From the NCBI GenBank assembly GCA_012735315.1, contig JAAYHS010000021.1, positions 1 through 40,697 on the forward strand: a DNA stretch of 40,697 bases. Reading direction: 5' to 3'. Each line of letters begins with the position of its first letter. Position 1 is the first letter of the stretch. The position numbers were made by a program, and so were the translations under genes. This document shows, in pieces, positions 32,909-40,697 of the stretch. The notes beneath the pieces are model-generated. The model worked only from the letters and a program-made list of their open reading frames with translations. It did not search any database and was not told the origin of the DNA. The DNA is from Bacillota bacterium. GTDB lineage: Bacteria; Bacillota; UBA4882; UBA8346.

Positions 32909-35367
32909 TGTTTGAAAGATTTACCGAACGGGCTCGCAAAGTGGTTTACTTGGCGCAACAAGAGGCCGCCAGGTTGGGTCATAATGTGGTTGGAACCGAA
33001 CATTTACTTTTGGGATTGGTCGTCGAGGGCGAAGGTGTGGCGGCCAAGGCTTTGGAAGTACTCAATATCAGTCTCGACCGGATTAGGCAAGAGGTTGAAA
33101 AGATCATCGGCAGCGGTGAAGCCAATCCTTTCGGAGAGATCCCGTTCACTCCCAGGGCCAAACGGGTTTTGGAATTAGCGGTGGATGAGGGACGGCAGAT
33201 GGGCCATAATTATGTTGGGACCGAGCATATCTTATTGGGGCTAATTCGTGAAGGAGAAGGCGTCGCCGCTCAGGTATTGAAAAACCTGGGCGCCGATCTG
33301 GAAAAAGTCCGTAAACAAGTGATTTCTCTCTTAGGCGGGGGAAGCGCGGTTTTCATGGGACAAACACATGGCGGCAAAGGCGCTCACCGTACTCAAACCC
33401 TGAATCAATTCGGACGGGACCTTACCGAGTTGGCTAAAATCGGAAAACTCGATCCGGTGATCGGCCGCGAAAATGAAATTGAAAGGGTAATTCAAGTATT
33501 GTCGCGCCGGACTAAAAACAACCCGGTCTTAATAGGAGAGCCCGGGGTTGGCAAAACCGCTATCGCCGAAGGTTTGGCGCAAATGATCGTCAAGGGAGAC
33601 GTACCGGAAATCTTAAAGCAAAAACGGGTAGTTACGCTGGATCTGGGGGCAATGGTCGCCGGTTCCAAGTATCGCGGCGAATTCGAAGAAAGACTGAAAA
33701 AAGTGATGGAAGAGATTCGCAATTCCGGAGATGTTATTTTGTTCATCGATGAATTGCATACTCTAATCGGCGCCGGCGCCGCCGAGGGCGCCATTGATGC
33801 CGCGAATATTTTGAAACCCGCTTTAGCCCGCGGCGAATTGCAATGCATCGGCGCCACCACCCTGGATGAGTACCGGAAGCATGTGGAGAAGGACGCCGCC
33901 TTGGAACGGCGGTTCCAGCCGATAACAGTAGGAGAACCTACGGTGGATGAGACCAGGTTAATCTTAAAAGGTTTGAGGGATCGTTACGAAGCTCATCACC
34001 GGGTGAAGATCAGCGACGAAGCCATTGAGGCCGCGGTTCAACTTTCCAATCGCTATATTACCGACCGGTTTTTGCCCGATAAAGCCATCGACTTAATTGA
34101 TGAGGCCGCTTCGCGGGTAAGGCTCCGGAATACTATTACTCCTCCCGATTTGAAAGAATTGGAAAATCGAATGAATCAATTGCAACAAGAGAAAGAAGCG
34201 GCGATCAAAAACGAAGAATTTGAAAAAGCCGCCGGATTAAGGGATGAAGAACAGAAGATCCGGCAGCAACTCGACGACTTGGCCAATGATTGGAAAAACA
34301 AACGGAGCAAGCTGGAACCGACGGTTGGAGAAGAGGAAATTGCCCAGGTGGTTTCCAGCTGGACCGGGATTCCCGTTACTAAATTGCAGCAAGAAGAGGC
34401 GGAGAAACTGTTAAAGTTGGAGGAAGTGCTCCACCAGCGAGTGATTGGGCAGAATGAAGCGGTGGAATCCGTGGCGCGGGCGGTTCGGAGAGCCAGAGCG
34501 GGATTAAAGGACCCGAAACGTCCGATTGGTTCCTTTATCTTTCTAGGACCGACCGGAGTTGGGAAAACCGAGTTGGCCAAGACGTTGGCTGAAGCGCTTT
34601 TCGGCGACGAGAACGCCATGGTCCGGATCGATATGTCCGAATATATGGAGCGGCACACGGTTTCACGATTGGTGGGGGCTCCTCCGGGTTATGTCGGCTA
34701 TGACGAAGGCGGACAATTAACCGAGCAAGTGCGGCGCAAGCCCTACGCGGTCATTCTGTTGGATGAAATTGAAAAGGCGCATCCGGAAGTCTTTAATATC
34801 TTATTGCAAGTGCTTGAGGATGGAAGATTGACCGACGCTCAGGGACGAAGGGTTGATTTTAAGAATACGGTGGTGATTATGACTTCCAATGTGGGCGCCA
34901 ATTTAATCGAGCGTTCAACCGGCATCGGTTTTCAAGCCGCTTCCGATACCGGGCTCGTTGACAATTATGAAAAGATGAAAGAAAAAGTGCTCGATGAATT
35001 GAAACGGACTTTCCGGCCGGAGTTTCTCAACCGGATCGATGAGATAATCGTTTTCCACGCCTTGAACCGTGAGGAGATTAAAGCCATCGTGGATCTGATG
35101 GTTCAACCGGTTACCCGGCAATTGATGGAGAAGGGAATTACGTTGGAATTGTCGGAAGAGGCCAGAGAACTGCTGGCGAAGGATGGGTTTGATCCGAATT
35201 TCGGAGCCCGGCCGTTGCGCCGCGCGGTCCAACGGTTGATTGAGAATCCTCTTTCCGAAGAATTATTAAAAGAAACGTTTAAGCCCGGAACTAAGTTGAA
35301 GGCCTCGGTTAAAGACGATCGGATCATCTTTGAACCGGTTGGTAAGAAGGAAAAATCAAAAGCATAA
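32908..35367 (+). CDS. clpC: ATP-dependent unfoldase ClpC
   Basis: An 819-aa Hsp100/AAA+ unfoldase that feeds phospho-arginine-marked and other substrates to ClpP. It has two Clp N-domain repeats (about 1-145), AAA1 with GEPGVGKTA and [11 protein letters not shown] (about 205-400), and a UVR-containing middle domain ([17 protein letters not shown], about 430) that binds McsA/MecA-type adaptors. AAA2 has [12 protein letters not shown] and [12 protein letters not shown] (about 545-720), and a C-terminal D2-small domain follows. The ATG overlaps the mcsB stop by 1 nt. The ClpP-binding loop (VGF-like, here within IGFQAASD) is present. It is the last operon gene, closed by a strong bidirectional terminator. 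Confidence 0.97.
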
Positions 35368-35432
35368 TTATTCCGTGCTCCGGGTTCGAAGTTGATGCCG
35401 CATTGGGAAGGCAAGTCCGTTCAAATTATTTG

Positions 35433-35467
35433 AAAAAAGTTGGCCGTATTTTCTGGCCAACTTTTTT
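35433..35467. terminator. Bidirectional intrinsic terminator between clpC and the membrane protein gene
   Basis: AAAAAAGTTGGCC (35433-35445) pairs perfectly with GGCCAACTTTTTT (35455-35467). It has T runs on both strands and lies between two convergent genes. Confidence 0.92.
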
Positions 35468-35480
35468 CCTTAAAAATTTT

Positions 35481-36086
35481 TTATGTTTGCGGATGGCCGT
35501 CTCCGGACTTGATTATTTCAAAATAGCCTTGCTCGGAATATTCTTGATAAGCCACAGTCAGGCAAATGACTGAAAAAGGAATGGTCAGGAAGACTCCAAC
35601 ACCGAAAGCCACCGCGCCGACGCTTGATAAGATTAGGGCTATTAAACCGTAGATCCAGATGATTAATGGCTCGGTTTTGAAAAAAAGGATTCCTTCTTTG
35701 ACGGCCGGGAGCGGCGCCGAGTCCTTTTCAATAATTAGAATAAGCGCTATCGTTACCACGACAAGTATTAAGGGACTAAGAGCAACCGTCAGAGCGACGC
35801 CTACAACCGGTATGTTCCGGGCGATTAAAAAGACGATCTCCGCCGCTAAACAGATAATTAGCGTCGGTAAAGTTTTTTCGAAATGAGCAAAGATTTCCTT
35901 GAACTCAGCCTGTTGATCGCGAAGCAGCTTCAAGATTAAGATCATTAACCCGCCGAAAAGCGGTCCGGCTAGAAGCCCCAAACTAAGAACGGTAAGAATT
36001 GAGGCTGCCAGGCCGGGCAGAAAGATGATTCCAAAGTTGTTCAAATATAAATCAATACTCTTTTGAAGGTTTTTTTCAATGTTCAT
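35481..36086 (-). CDS. Multi-pass membrane protein of unknown function
   Basis: The 201-aa protein has four to six hydrophobic segments, including GIIFLPGLAASILTVLSLGL (about 19-38), a mid block around IVFLIARNIP...LILVVVTIALILII, and a C-terminal block LIALILSSVGAVAFGVGVFL. The last segment ends in a polar tail (EQGYFEIIKSGDGHPQT). The layout resembles DUF975-like or other small uncharacterised integral membrane families, but I cannot name it. ATG at 36086 has GGGGGAA upstream. It follows the Crp-family gene on the same strand 181 nt downstream of it, so the two may be co-transcribed. Confidence 0.65.
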   Translation of the reverse strand: MNIEKNLQKSIDLYLNNFGIIFLPGLAASILTVLSLGLLAGPLFGGLMILILKLLRDQQAEFKEIFAHFEKTLPTLIICLAAEIVFLIARNIPVVGVALTVALSPLILVVVTIALILIIEKDSAPLPAVKEGILFFKTEPLIIWIYGLIALILSSVGAVAFGVGVFLTIPFSVICLTVAYQEYSEQGYFEIIKSGDGHPQT

Positions 36087-36267
36087 GGGGTTCCCCCTTT
36101 GGGTTTAAATAGGAATAGAATTCCCTAGTAAGATCTATTAAGATTAAAGGGGTATTATGCCCGGTTTCTTTGAGGGAAGATGTATTGCAATGAGGAAGAA
36201 GCGTTGATGGGTAGAGTGGTTGACGGCTCCGGTGAGAAACATCTTTCCGTTATGGGGAAGCCCGGTT

Positions 36268-36924
36268 TTAGCTCTGAAGTCGGCTATTGGAATTTCCCTT
36301 CCTTCCCTTGTTTAAAATTATCCACCCTTCGGTTCTTAGTTCTTTAATAACTCGGGTAATGGTTTCCCGGGTGGTCCCTAAATCGGCGGCCAACTGTTGG
36401 TGGGTTTTGGTAATCTTAATAGTACGGTCGCCATTCCGGGGGTCGGCGAACATGTTTAAAAAGCGTTCTCTGACCCGCCCATAGGCCATATCTTCAAGGC
36501 GATTGTCGGTCAGACGCAATCTGCGGCAAAGAATGGCGATAATCTTTAAGGCGATCTCCGGTTTTTGTAAAAGTAAAGCGCGAAAGTCTTCTCTTGTAAT
36601 AGCGGCCAACTGAAGGTCGGTGGCGGCCACTGCCCGGCAGGATCTCCCCGCATTATCCATTACCGCCATTTCGCCGAAAAATTCATTTTTCCCCAAAACG
36701 GCAAGAGTCAATATTTTACCCTCTCGAGTAATTAATTCCAAACTTACCTGGCCCGATTCAATCAAGTACATGGTGTCCCCGGGCTCGTCTTGCTCGAAGA
36801 CGACGGTGTTTTTAGCAAGTTTGATCCGGGCGCTTTTGAATAAAAGGGCGTCGATATCGGAGGGAGTGAGTTCATGAAAGAAGGAACCGTTAAAAGGCCC
36901 CGCCTTTTGCTGTAGATTTTTCAT
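36268..36924 (-). CDS. Crp-family transcription regulator
   Basis: The 218-aa protein has a cyclic-nucleotide-binding-type beta-roll (about 20-125; FEQDEPGDTMYLIESGQVSL and FFGEMAVMDNAGRS, the latter resembling the phosphate-binding cassette of cAMP-binding Crp). The dimer helix (about 125-150) and a winged helix-turn-helix (about 165-215) follow. Its recognition helix TTRETITRVIKEL has Arg-Glu...Arg in the positions used by E. coli Crp (RETVGR) to read TGTGA; FNR-type proteins differ here. There is no N-terminal Cys cluster, so it is not an oxygen-sensing FNR. ATG at 36924 follows CGGAG by 9 nt. A TGTGA-N6-TCACC box lies 218 nt upstream. Effector (cAMP or other) unknown. Confidence 0.9.
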   Translation of the reverse strand: MKNLQQKAGPFNGSFFHELTPSDIDALLFKSARIKLAKNTVVFEQDEPGDTMYLIESGQVSLELITREGKILTLAVLGKNEFFGEMAVMDNAGRSCRAVAATDLQLAAITREDFRALLLQKPEIALKIIAILCRRLRLTDNRLEDMAYGRVRERFLNMFADPRNGDRTIKITKTHQQLAADLGTTRETITRVIKELRTEGWIILNKGRKGNSNSRLQS

Positions 36925-36997
36925 TGGGCGTTTCTCCGTGGTTAGGATTAAAAATTTATCAGTATTAATTTCGGCGGTTTTTGGCAAGAAGTTAAAC

Positions 36998-37028
36998 AAA
37001 AAACAGGGGGGTGAGCGCCCTGTTTTTT
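36998..37028. terminator. Bidirectional terminator in the Crp-family leader region
   Basis: AAAAAACAGGG (36998-37008) pairs with CCCTGTTTTTT (37018-37028), with T runs on both strands. On the minus strand it lies about 80 nt downstream of the predicted start at 37108 and about 75 nt upstream of the Crp-family ATG. Confidence 0.85.
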
Positions 37029-37108
37029 GGGTTATATATCCGCTGCCTTTGCTTTACCGCTGTTCATGACTTAAGGGGATTCTTAAAAAATAAAGGAGGT
37101 AATCGTTT
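36998..37108 (-). ncRNA. Candidate Crp-controlled small RNA (or attenuated leader)
   Basis: On the minus strand the predicted start near 37108 and the terminator at 36998-37028 bound a transcript of about 110 nt. Near its 5' end it carries UUACCUCCUUUA, complementary to a Shine-Dalgarno site. A small hairpin (UUAAG...CUUAA) with an AAUCCC loop follows, then a duplicated CAGCGG word, then the terminator. C-rich loops and anti-ribosome-binding-site stretches are typical of base-pairing sRNAs in Gram-positive bacteria (for example RoxS/RsaE, which this does not match in sequence). It has no ORF with a ribosome binding site. Alternatively it is the leader of the Crp-family gene and the hairpin is an attenuator. 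Both readings are inference. Confidence 0.4.
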
Positions 37109-37114
37109 AAGATC

Positions 37115-37157
37115 ATTATATATTTGATTTCGATTATTGTCGGTGATCTTTATCACA
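37115..37157 (-). promoter_or_regulatory. Crp-type box and promoter reading toward the Crp-family gene
   Basis: On the minus strand, TGTGATAAAGATCACC (37157 to 37142) is a TGTGA-N6-TCACC palindrome. It is followed by a poor -35 (CCGACA, 37143-37138), a 17-nt spacer and a perfect -10 TATAAT (37120-37115). With a start at 37108 the box centre is at -41.5, the classical position for class II activation by Crp. Confidence 0.6.
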
Positions 37158-37189
37158 AATTTTGACTTCCGGTGTAAAATAAGATCAAT

Positions 37190-37226
37190 AATAAAGAAAG
37201 AAACCGGAAGGGATCGACCTTCCGGT
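37190..37226 (-). terminator. Terminator of the SLH gene
   Basis: AACCGGAAGG (37201-37210) pairs perfectly with CCTTCCGGTT (37217-37226) around GATCGA. On the minus strand it is followed by CTTTCTTTATTATT, a T-rich but interrupted tail, about 50 nt after the SLH stop. Confidence 0.75.
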
Positions 37227-37277
37227 TGAGGAATAAGGATGATTAATTGAGGAGATGGCAACTTTTTCATCGGGACA

Positions 37278-38516
37278 TTAGTATGAAGCTGTTCCATTAT
37301 CAGGGCTTCCCATACCGAGCAATCTGCTCAAGGCCGCGGTCGCCAGCTCGATCTTGCCGTATTCCTTGATTTTTTCAAGATCCCTGGCTAAGAGCGCCTG
37401 GCTGAAGTCGATGGTTATGCCAAGGTGATCGGAAAGCGCTTGCGCTAGACGGTCCCGGCTCAAAGTATCGAGATAGTTCCAATCTTGCACCATGATGCTT
37501 TCCGCTTCGGCGGGGGTCAATCCGATGTCAATTAAACGATTGTAGATTCCGCCTTTCATGCCGTCTTTAACCGAATCCCAATCGCCGGCCATGATGGCGG
37601 CGATCTGGTCCCGGTCAAGCTTGCCTTTCATCATGGAGCTAATCCGGGAAAGCAGGTCATTCTTAGTAACCCGGCCGAAGGCTTTTAGAAACTTTACATC
37701 TCCAGAACTCTGGGAGATGACGGTGACCTCATCTCCGTTTAAGAGGTCGTCAACCGGCGCGGCGGCGTTATTCCGGATTAACACGGTTTCCGGGGTCACT
37801 AGGACCATCAAGGGGTCATTTCCCGGTTCTTTTTGGATATTTAATAGACCGCTTCCGGAATCAACGTGGCTGATTTTGCCTTTGGAAACTTCCAACCCGG
37901 CCAAGGCATGAATCATCCAGGCCGCTTCAGCCCTGGTGACCGCTTGATCGGGGTGAAATTGCGTTAGGTTTTGATATTTATCCGGCAATAATCCGAGTTT
38001 GTTACAGAGCTCGATATAACGGAAAGCCCAATGATCGTTGGGAACATCCGCGAAACCGGCGGACCAATCCTCTCCGAATTTTTCTTCCGGCTTGGCGACG
38101 TTAAGGATCCGGCAAATAAAGGTCGCCAGTTGAGCCCGGCTGACCGTTCTTTCCGGTTGAAATTTGCCGTCGGCGAAACTGTTCATCACTTTATGTTCGG
38201 CTACGGCATTCATGTGGGAAGCGGCCCAGTGCCCGCCGATGTCCGGATATTTGCTGCCGCTTACCGGTTGATAGTTCAGCGTTTTGCTGATTATTTTAGC
38301 CAGTTCGGCCCGAGTAATAGCCTGATCGGGCTTGAAGGTCCCGTCGGGATAACCATTGATTATCCCATTGGTCTCAAGATTTTGGATCGGTTGGGCCGCC
38401 CAATGCTCCTGAATATCGGAGAAGGAAGTCGCGGCATACACTTTGGCGCAAAATAGTAAGGAAAGGGTCAAGGATACCGCCAACATTGAATGAAGTCTTT
38501 GTTTGGCAATTAACAT
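37278..38516 (-). CDS. Secreted S-layer-homology (SLH) domain protein
   Basis: The 412-aa protein has a signal peptide (MLIAKQRLHSMLAVSLTLSL..., cleavage near AKVYA-A at about residue 28). Three SLH modules follow (about 30-85, 88-145 and 155-220), each with the F.D...HWA...I..L...G...G.PDGTF.P...ITRAE.A signature. SLH modules bind pyruvylated wall polymers. Residues 225-290 form a beta-rich domain, and 300-412 a helical domain with repeated ...GDWDSVKD / ...QDWNYLDT motifs of unknown type. There is no outer-membrane barrel, so it is not OmpM-like. ATG at 38516 follows AAGGAG by 8 nt; a start 32 codons earlier is rejected because it leads into that ribosome binding site and precedes the signal peptide. 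Confidence 0.88.
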   Translation of the reverse strand: MLIAKQRLHSMLAVSLTLSLLFCAKVYAATSFSDIQEHWAAQPIQNLETNGIINGYPDGTFKPDQAITRAELAKIISKTLNYQPVSGSKYPDIGGHWAASHMNAVAEHKVMNSFADGKFQPERTVSRAQLATFICRILNVAKPEEKFGEDWSAGFADVPNDHWAFRYIELCNKLGLLPDKYQNLTQFHPDQAVTRAEAAWMIHALAGLEVSKGKISHVDSGSGLLNIQKEPGNDPLMVLVTPETVLIRNNAAAPVDDLLNGDEVTVISQSSGDVKFLKAFGRVTKNDLLSRISSMMKGKLDRDQIAAIMAGDWDSVKDGMKGGIYNRLIDIGLTPAEAESIMVQDWNYLDTLSRDRLAQALSDHLGITIDFSQALLARDLEKIKEYGKIELATAALSRLLGMGSPDNGTASY

Positions 38517-38957
38517 CGATAATTCTCCTTTCGTCCGGGGACGTAATCTTTGATGACGGCGGTAAACTAAAAGGATATTAGTTAAACGCCGCTTATTGGT
38601 AACGTGAAGCAAATTAAAAATAGAAACTTTACATAATATAATATTATATCAGGTAATTCTCATTATAACAGGGAGTTCCTTTAAGTAATTGTTGGCAGGA
38701 TTGGTTGCTCGGTTTGTTTCCGGAATTAACCGGATCGGTTGGGAGCGAACGGTTATTGCGGCTTCGTTTTTTAAACTTTATAACATCAAAACGCCGGTTC
38801 GGCTCGAAAATTGCAGGTTAGTATTTGGCGTTATTGTGGATGATTGGCAAGAATGGCAAGCAGGATGAATCCGGACTGATACGGTTCGGTGATTATTTGA
38901 TCTAAATCAGTGTTAATTAAAGCATAATTAGTTTATTTGCGGCGGAGGAAGACTGTC
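38517..38957. other. Divergent intergenic region with AT palindrome and an Fnr-like box
   Basis: This 441-nt region must hold promoters for the SLH gene (left) and the anti-sigma-like gene (right). It contains a perfect 14-nt palindrome ATATAATATTATAT (38636-38649) with -10-like TATAAT sequences. TTGAT-CTAA-ATCAG (38897-38910), near the right gene, is one base from an Fnr consensus. No ORF or RNA gene is supported. Confidence 0.45.
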
Positions 38958-39569
38958 ATGAACTGTTATAACGCGCGGAAATATCTTGAGGAACTGGCGG
39001 CGGGGGAAATCAGCAGTCCTTTGGCCCGCCGGCTTCAGGAACATCTACGCTCCTGCCCGGGCTGCCGGGAAGAATACCAAATGATGAAACAGGCGTTGGA
39101 GCTGATGCGGTCAGGTCAAGGGATTGAGTCGCGGCAGCGGTTTAACTCCGTTTGGCGGCAGCGCGTCCGCCAAGAAGCCATTATTAAAGAGGCCGGCCGA
39201 CGGGGCTTTTTTGCGGTTTTCAAGACCAACACCTTAATTCCGGCCTTGGGTGTGCTGGCGGTGGCGCTGGTATTTGTGGTATTTAGTATTTTTAACCGTT
39301 TCGTTGCGGGAAATCAAGTGAAGGAAACCGCTCTCTATCAGTTGCGGATTATGGATTTCGGCCCTGATGAAGAGCGGGTTCGGGAGGTAATCGCCATTTT
39401 CGACCAATATCGGGAAGAATACCGGGACGGCGGCGTCCCACCCGGCGACTCTAACCGAGAGGGAGCTTTATTAATTTATCAGGGTTTAACCGAAGAGGAT
39501 CTGGAGAGTTTCAAGCTGGAGTTGGAAAAGGCCGGGGCCAAGGTGGAGTTTGGGAAGGAAGGAAAGTAA
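38958..39569 (+). CDS. Anti-sigma factor-like membrane protein with zinc-finger (zf-HC2)
   Basis: The 203-aa protein starts NCYNARKYLEELAAGEIS. It has the cytoplasmic zf-HC2 motif HLRSCPGC (about residues 29-36), then a single transmembrane helix (about 90-110, LIPALGVLAVALVFVVFSIF), then an extracytoplasmic domain (about 111-203) with GPDEERVREVIAIF and a C-terminal mixed alpha/beta part. This matches ECF anti-sigma factors (His-Cys-Cys zinc site) that hold a sigma factor at the membrane. No sigma factor gene is adjacent, so its partner is elsewhere or it is an orphan. ATG at 38958 is 9 nt after GCGGAGG; a TTG seven codons earlier overlaps that site. Confidence 0.75.
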   Translation: MNCYNARKYLEELAAGEISSPLARRLQEHLRSCPGCREEYQMMKQALELMRSGQGIESRQRFNSVWRQRVRQEAIIKEAGRRGFFAVFKTNTLIPALGVLAVALVFVVFSIFNRFVAGNQVKETALYQLRIMDFGPDEERVREVIAIFDQYREEYRDGGVPPGDSNREGALLIYQGLTEEDLESFKLELEKAGAKVEFGKEGK

Positions 39570-39583
39570 CTTGGGGTTCGGCA

Positions 39584-39612
39584 TTGGCGATTAATCATAA
39601 GTGATGTATAAT
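39584..39612 (+). promoter_or_regulatory. Promoter of hisF
   Basis: TTGGCG (39584-39589) and TATAAT (39607-39612) are 17 nt apart, just downstream of the anti-sigma-like gene's stop. This gives hisF its own promoter. Confidence 0.75.
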
Positions 39613-39644
39613 ATTGACTTGTTAGAAACATTGGGAGGCAAACC

Positions 39645-40412
39645 ATGGTTCAACCGATTCGGATTATGCCATGCCTTGATGTGCAAAACGGGCGGGTCGT
39701 CAAAGGCGTCCACTTTGTGGATATCCGGGATGCGGGCGATCCGGTCCAATGCGCATTGGCGTATTGCGACAAAGGCGCGGACGAGCTGGCGATGCTCGAC
39801 ATTACGGCTACGGTGGAAGGCAGGGCTACCATGCTTGATGTGGTAAAGCGGGTCGCGGAGGTAACCACCGTTCCCCTTACGGTCGGCGGCGGAATCTCCG
39901 ATTTAAAATCAGCCGCGGCCGTGCTGAACGTGGGAGCGAATAAAATATCCGTCAGCAGCGCCGCCTTTCGGAGACAGGAATTAATCCCGGAACTCGTCAA
40001 AGAATTCGGCGCCGATAAAGTGACGGTGGCCATCGATGTGGACCGGAACGCATCCCTGCCTTCGGGTTATGAGGTTTATATCGACGGCGGGCGTACCGCC
40101 ACCGGAGTAGACGCGGTGGAGTGGGCCAAGCGGATTGACGGTTACGGCGTCCCGGTTATTCTTCCTACCAGCAAAGCCGGTGACGGTTCGCGGAGCGGTT
40201 ATGATTTACCGGTGATTAAAGCCATTAAGGAAGCGGTTTCAGCGGAAGTGGTGGCTTCCGGCGGAGCGGGAAAGTTGGAGCATTTTTATGAGGCGGTCCA
40301 GGCGGGCGCCACGATTTTATTGGCCGCATCCATCTTTCATTTCGGTATTATTGAGATTAAGGCTTTAAAAGAATATCTACGCAGCCGGGGGATTGAGGTC
40401 GCGGCTCAATAA
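39645..40412 (+). CDS. hisF: Imidazole glycerol phosphate synthase cyclase subunit HisF, variant loop
   Basis: The 255-aa beta/alpha barrel closes the imidazole ring in histidine synthesis, using ammonia from HisH. It keeps the N-terminal CLDVQNGRVVKG with Asp12 (general acid/base) and Lys20, the phosphate-binding LTVGGGI, Asp131 in VAIDVDR, and the C-terminal ASGGAGK and LAASIFH. The loop usually written LLTSMDRDGTKxGYD is here LPTSKAGDGSRSGYD: the final Asp180 is kept, but the preceding residues differ. ATG at 39645 follows GGGAGG by 8 nt. No hisH, hisA or other his gene lies next to it, so it may be a displaced his gene or a HisF-like protein. Confidence 0.85.
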   Translation: MVQPIRIMPCLDVQNGRVVKGVHFVDIRDAGDPVQCALAYCDKGADELAMLDITATVEGRATMLDVVKRVAEVTTVPLTVGGGISDLKSAAAVLNVGANKISVSSAAFRRQELIPELVKEFGADKVTVAIDVDRNASLPSGYEVYIDGGRTATGVDAVEWAKRIDGYGVPVILPTSKAGDGSRSGYDLPVIKAIKEAVSAEVVASGGAGKLEHFYEAVQAGATILLAASIFHFGIIEIKALKEYLRSRGIEVAAQ

Positions 40413-40574
40413 TCCGCATCCGCGTCTTTTGTCCGGCGACCGAGTTGAGCTCCCTGGAGTCCGAAACTAATTATGTATGGTGATTCCGCAAAGGCATTAA
40501 TTCCGTTTATTCTACCGACTATTTTCAAGCATTTTCAAAAAAGCGGAGGGTTTTAAAGACCTTCCGCTTTGGTT
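40413..40574 (+). other. Spacer between hisF and the group II intron
   Basis: The 162-nt gap ends in a terminator hairpin. The rest shows no ORF, promoter or repeat. Confidence 0.5.
40540..40574 (+). terminator. Terminator hairpin, insertion target of the intron
   Basis: AAAGCGGAGGG (40540-40550) pairs with CCTTCCGCTTT (40560-40570) with one G-U, loop TTTTAAAGA. Instead of a long T run, GGTT and then the intron start follow, so the intron appears to have entered right behind the hairpin. Confidence 0.82.
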
Positions 40575-40697
40575 GTACGCCCGGCATGGGCGTTGTCTAT
40601 AGGGTGGAAGTCCCGAACGGGGGCTGGCGAGCGCCTACCGTTAGCGGAAGGCAAGGGTGTTAACCGCGAGGTTAAATCTGAAGGAAGCCGGATGCAA
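40575..40697 (+). mobile_element. 5' end of a group IIC self-splicing intron (partial)
   Basis: From 40575 the sequence reads GTACGCCCGGCATGGGCG, then CTATAGGGTGGAAGTCCCGA, then GGCAAGGGTGTTAACCGCGA, then ATCTGAAGGAAGCCGG. This is the domain I opening of class IIC introns, matching the well-known Oceanobacillus iheyensis intron in order and wording. The 5' terminus is GTACG rather than the usual GTGYG. The reverse transcriptase ORF (domain IV) and the 3' end lie outside the window. IIC introns are known to insert next to terminator hairpins, and one is present at 40540-40570. Confidence 0.88.

Follow-up and report, generated by a model that had tools for sequence, protein, structure and literature searches.

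The region upstream of a Crp-superfamily regulator gene, here called crp, in a stretch of 40,697 nucleotides from the genome of an uncultured Bacillota bacterium (the window) raises the question of what is transcribed from it and which protein controls that transcription. An earlier note had seen in its minus strand either a Crp-dependent regulatory RNA or an autoregulatory loop with an attenuator. Read on that strand, the region from promoter to terminator is TTTGTGATAAAGATCACCGACA...AAATATATAATGATCTTAAACG. The TGTGA-N6-TCACC box and the perfect TATAAT that the note had described are indeed there. The box, TGTGATAAAGATCACC, is of the Crp/FNR type, occupies 37157-37142 (-) and is centred at -41.5 relative to an implied +1 at about 37108 (an A), which is placed from the TATAAT at 37120-37115 (-); this -10 hexamer is evident in the sequence, in the promoter scan and in the layout search. 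The -35-like hexamer CCGACA (37138..37143, minus strand) overlaps the box and is separated from TATAAT by a 17-nt spacer. It had been called poor, and it is below consensus, but 4/6 matches, and 10/12 for the promoter overall in the promoter scan, rank it as mediocre and not very poor. A palindromic box at -41.5 together with a recognisable -10 element, the arrangement of a class II promoter, is thus present both in the sequence and in the layout search, and the combination of box and TATAAT upstream of crp makes a convincing case for a predicted Crp/FNR-activated promoter.

How often this arrangement occurs was determined in this genome (2.95 Mb) and in a sample of 29 genomes of the class, with the reversed pattern as the control. 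The bare box, TGTGA-N6-TCAC, is found at five distinct places in this genome. Box, 21 nt and TATAAT with no more than two mismatches gave 5 matches in this genome versus 0 for the control, and 41 versus 16 across the 29 class genomes, the latter being sums that we added up from the per-genome layout counts. The class II layout at the window site exceeds chance, and the prediction of a Crp-class promoter there is well supported by its sequence together with the genome-wide statistics. Two box matches were set aside: one on contig C65, whose spacing to its own TATAAT is wrong, and one on contig C189, which sits inside a CRISPR array (L081:1351-1837, repeat GTTTCAATCCCTCATAGGTAATCTAAAAAC).

Three of the five layout matches in this genome, namely C72:6476, C75:562 and the window site, combine a complete TATAAT with no more than one mismatch. 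The first two each directly precede a gene. At C72 this is a gene for a RIC/hemerythrin-like protein, followed by one for a flavodiiron NO reductase-like protein (both family matches are below curated cut-offs); at C75 it is a gene for a RIC-like protein of 108 aa, again with a family match below the curated cut-off. With iron-sulfur-repair/hemerythrin-like genes immediately following these two sites, and with a gene for an FNR-like regulator next to one of them, this genome likely has a real class II Crp/FNR regulon of the redox/NO type, into which the window site fits. Of the three sites, the window site alone has a terminator ahead of any credible gene.

The neighbourhoods of the sister sites have features of their own. 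At L063:702-3043 (contig C72), the FNR-like regulator gene, a perfect class II site and the RIC/hemerythrin-like and flavodiiron NO reductase-like genes follow in that order, and a compact NO-stress locus is predicted. The C75 locus (L066:562-929) consists of a small RIC/hemerythrin-like gene with a class II box. Small genes like this one, with homology judged by eye, have the class II layout and TTTGATC-type boxes in five further class genomes; like small RIC/hemerythrin genes with box, 21 nt and TATAAT are seen at L087, L088, L091, L101 and L102. As read from these sequences, this small family has a recurrent predicted FNR-type promoter across several class genomes. Elsewhere in this genome (L068, C192:23961), a palindromic TGTGAAATAAATCACA lies directly 5' of a NuoE/HydC-like hydrogenase-subunit gene.

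Which protein acts on the box is a separate matter. The crp gene (36268..36924, minus strand) encodes 218 aa from the ATG at 36924, and its product has Pfam cNMP-binding and Crp HTH domains and relatives in the PDB that include E. coli CAP. The Crp-type recognition helix with RETITR that had been noticed in this neighbour is there, as is GE...RS in the nucleotide pocket. The equivalence of its residues to those of E. coli CRP, which served as the yardstick, is to be taken as a lead only; the family assignment is supported by Pfam and the PDB relatives, independently of that yardstick. Against the CRP equivalog, the protein scores 88.1 bits, below the curated NCBIfam cut-off of 266, and no close homologue of it was found among the sampled class genomes. 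A second candidate is encoded just upstream of the C72 site, where the FNR-like protein has an N-terminal cysteine cluster and RETVSR. Its homologue in genome G006 is 48% identical and TGTGATTTGAATCACA lies upstream of the gene; in G006, where the box thus adjoins the FNR-like gene, no close homologue of the window Crp was found. Furthermore, at least one class II match is present in 11 of the 13 genomes with a strong FNR-like homologue (E <= 1e-39) versus 6 of the 16 without one (one-sided Fisher p = 0.013, for a grouping that is post hoc and ignores shared ancestry). Given the C72 and G006 box sites, this association and the lack of a close window-Crp homologue in the class sample, the FNR-like protein appears at least as likely as the window Crp to act on the box. 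Of the proposed Crp control, then, the Crp/FNR-class promoter stands, but the role of the window's own Crp as activator does not follow, given the like box beside the FNR-like gene in C72 and G006; the activator may instead be the C72 FNR-like protein.

Transcription from the box promoter is expected to be short. The strong terminator that had been reported about 110 nt on was confirmed at about 37029-36997 (-), some 70 nt ahead of crp: its hairpin, AAAAAACAGGG...CCCTGTTTTTTG, has a predicted stability of -15.4 kcal/mol (z -4.5; 0/200 shuffles were as stable) and is followed by T6GT3. The upstream neighbour, a gene for an SLH-domain protein (37278..38612, minus strand; three Pfam SLH matches), has a terminator of its own at 37227-37202 (-), which isolates it from the box promoter, and for this reason the hairpin at 37029-36997 is best taken as the end of the box promoter's transcript. 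A short terminated RNA from this promoter is likely, as judged from the sequence. These features also bear on the possibility that there is no regulated RNA here, and that a weak or chance promoter lies before a terminator that serves the SLH transcript as a back-up. The hairpin region is A/T-symmetric and terminator-like on the plus strand as well, and the RNA lacks conservation, both of which would suit that account; however, the promoter layout is above control and a good SLH terminator already lies ahead of the box, and we regard the account as improbable.

The predicted RNA, implied by the -10 element and the terminator, extends from the +1 at 37108 to 36996 on the minus strand (about 112 nt). 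Its own promoter and its intrinsic terminator have no coding gene between them, and an 11-codon ORF inside it lacks a ribosome site. Two other reading frames were rejected: a minus-strand ORF at 37064-37297, which spans a terminator and has no Pfam family, and a plus-strand gene behind an opposite-strand AAAGGAGG, which has no start codon at a usable distance. In the predicted fold, a stem-loop (UUUUAAG-AAUCCC-CUUAAG, 37070..37087) with an open AAUCCC loop and a weak long-range stem accompany the terminator hairpin. Near the 5' end lies the anti-Shine-Dalgarno stretch ATTACCTCCTTTA (37091..37103, with ACCTCC at 37100-37095), which we take to resemble the 3' end of 16S RNA; when the 5' 78 nt of the RNA are shuffled, ACCTCC is expected to turn up about 1% of the time. 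Both the anti-Shine-Dalgarno ACCUCC and the C-rich loops of the earlier description are present, and the UCCC loop is open by fold and accessibility, but in the predicted fold part of the ACCUCC core is paired and hidden by the long-range stem, with an opening cost of about 3.7-4.5 kcal/mol. The suggestion that targets might be predicted from this segment was not borne out: in the genome its extended complement occurs 29 times versus 25 for the control, which is no enrichment, and no target is singled out. Since any anti-Shine-Dalgarno sequence pairs with many ribosome sites, the match by itself names no targets.

The account that best explains these observations, which we hold tentatively and at a little under an even chance, is that a class II Crp/FNR promoter yields a transcript of about 112 nt, most likely a small RNA that represses by pairing with Shine-Dalgarno sequences. 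In response to a signal of the redox/NO type, or else to a cyclic nucleotide, a Crp/FNR protein would recruit RNA polymerase to the promoter, with the box over the -35 region and TATAAT downstream, and transcription would end at the intrinsic terminator. The released RNA would then pair with ribosome-binding sites through UUACCUCCUUU and the C-rich loop and repress translation, while leak-through past the terminator may also supply crp. The exact -41.5 layout, the counts above control, the strong terminator and the separate SLH terminator favour this account, as do the sister sites before Fe-S-repair/hemerythrin-like genes, the rarity of the anti-Shine-Dalgarno sequence among shuffles and the open UCCC loop. 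Against it stand the absence of an RNA relative in the 29 genomes, the partial pairing of the anti-Shine-Dalgarno core and the unenriched extended complement; the lack of any further promoter in the scan ahead of crp also speaks for a leader.

Alternatively, the RNA could be a prematurely terminated 5' leader of crp, with the promoter being crp's own, under the control either of Crp itself or of the FNR-like protein; the terminator would then set or conditionally control crp output and the short RNA would be a by-product. This is a substantial possibility, though we think it somewhat less probable. The box promoter is directed at crp. Between it and the ATG at 36924 the scan accepted no further promoter on the minus strand, so that some leak-through may supply crp. 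However, an antiterminator, a leader peptide with a ribosome site and a known riboswitch were looked for and none was found, and a full TGTGA box lies upstream of only one of 14 Crp/Fnr homologue genes of other genomes (the FNR-like gene of G006); these 14 are the ones among the 43 scanned for which a reading frame was recovered. A free small RNA is slightly favoured over a truncated crp leader, and both may hold together. As for the original pair of proposals, sequence and statistics give good support to a Crp-class promoter and a short terminated transcript, and the sequence is compatible with a regulatory RNA as well as with an attenuator.

Homologues of the RNA were sought by BLAST and with a single-sequence covariance model in the 29 class genomes, in which no close window-Crp homologue was found either, and none turned up beyond this genome; a hit in G034 was rejected, being short, AT-rich and placed at a ribosome-binding site. 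Absence of the RNA elsewhere neither supports nor refutes a function. In G001, which is of the same genus, the flanking genes for a 201-aa protein, the SLH protein and a zinc-finger protein are kept, and the place of crp and its upstream unit is taken by a GGDEF-like gene on the opposite strand (window 36087-37277 versus L150:3951-5556). Because the flanks are kept and a different gene lies in its place, crp with its box/terminator unit was either gained here or lost in G001. That crp, box and terminator may have come or gone together would suit a crp leader. G001 also showed no FNR-like gene and no class II match.

The seed of the enterobacterial small RNA CyaR contains ACCUCC. CyaR is CRP-dependent and binds the Shine-Dalgarno region of a target mRNA (PMC11795201), and the RNA predicted here likewise would lie under a Crp/FNR-type box and contain ACCUCC; it differs in coming from a distant lineage and in having no Rfam match. 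RoxS/RsaE of Bacillus and Staphylococcus is a small RNA under an NO/redox regulator whose C-rich regions contact ribosome-binding sites (PMC4409812), but the activator of RoxS is ResD, a two-component regulator, rather than a Crp/FNR protein. An Rfam cmscan of 33000-40697 (E<=1) matched the predicted RNA to no known family, with neither CyaR nor RoxS/RsaE listed, and by analogy the RNA may work like these Shine-Dalgarno-pairing small RNAs while being a member of neither family. The HcpR/Crp2 regulons of anaerobes, in the part of the study that describes them, have wTGTGAnnnnnnTCACAw boxes and include redox, ferredoxin and hemerythrin-like genes (PMC1274295). Similar boxes and hemerythrin-like genes at the sites in this genome fit an NO/redox signal, a comparison that covers box and regulon content; the regulons as described in that part list protein genes, not small RNAs (PMC1274295).

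Should the small RNA account be correct, a Crp/FNR-activated short RNA would be added to a poorly studied lineage, CyaR-like wiring would be found in a distant group, and the predicted NO/redox regulon would be widened from protein genes to an RNA. If the RNA is only a crp leader, the locus would be a regulator gene of ordinary design, under its own control or that of FNR, with a terminator in its leader. A fuller proposal, which we consider unlikely when taken as a whole, is that an FNR/Crp-type redox regulator of this Bacillota-like class directly controls a lineage-specific small RNA, which would act as a Shine-Dalgarno-pairing repressor when cells meet nitrosative or oxygen stress and would be coupled by leak-through of the terminator to a second Crp-family gene. 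Elsewhere in the window, a ctsR-mcsA-mcsB-clpC gene order was recognised by eye and read as Bacillota-like, and positions 40660-40697 (+) match a group II intron (Rfam RF02001, 33.2 bits), of which the contig end leaves only the first part.
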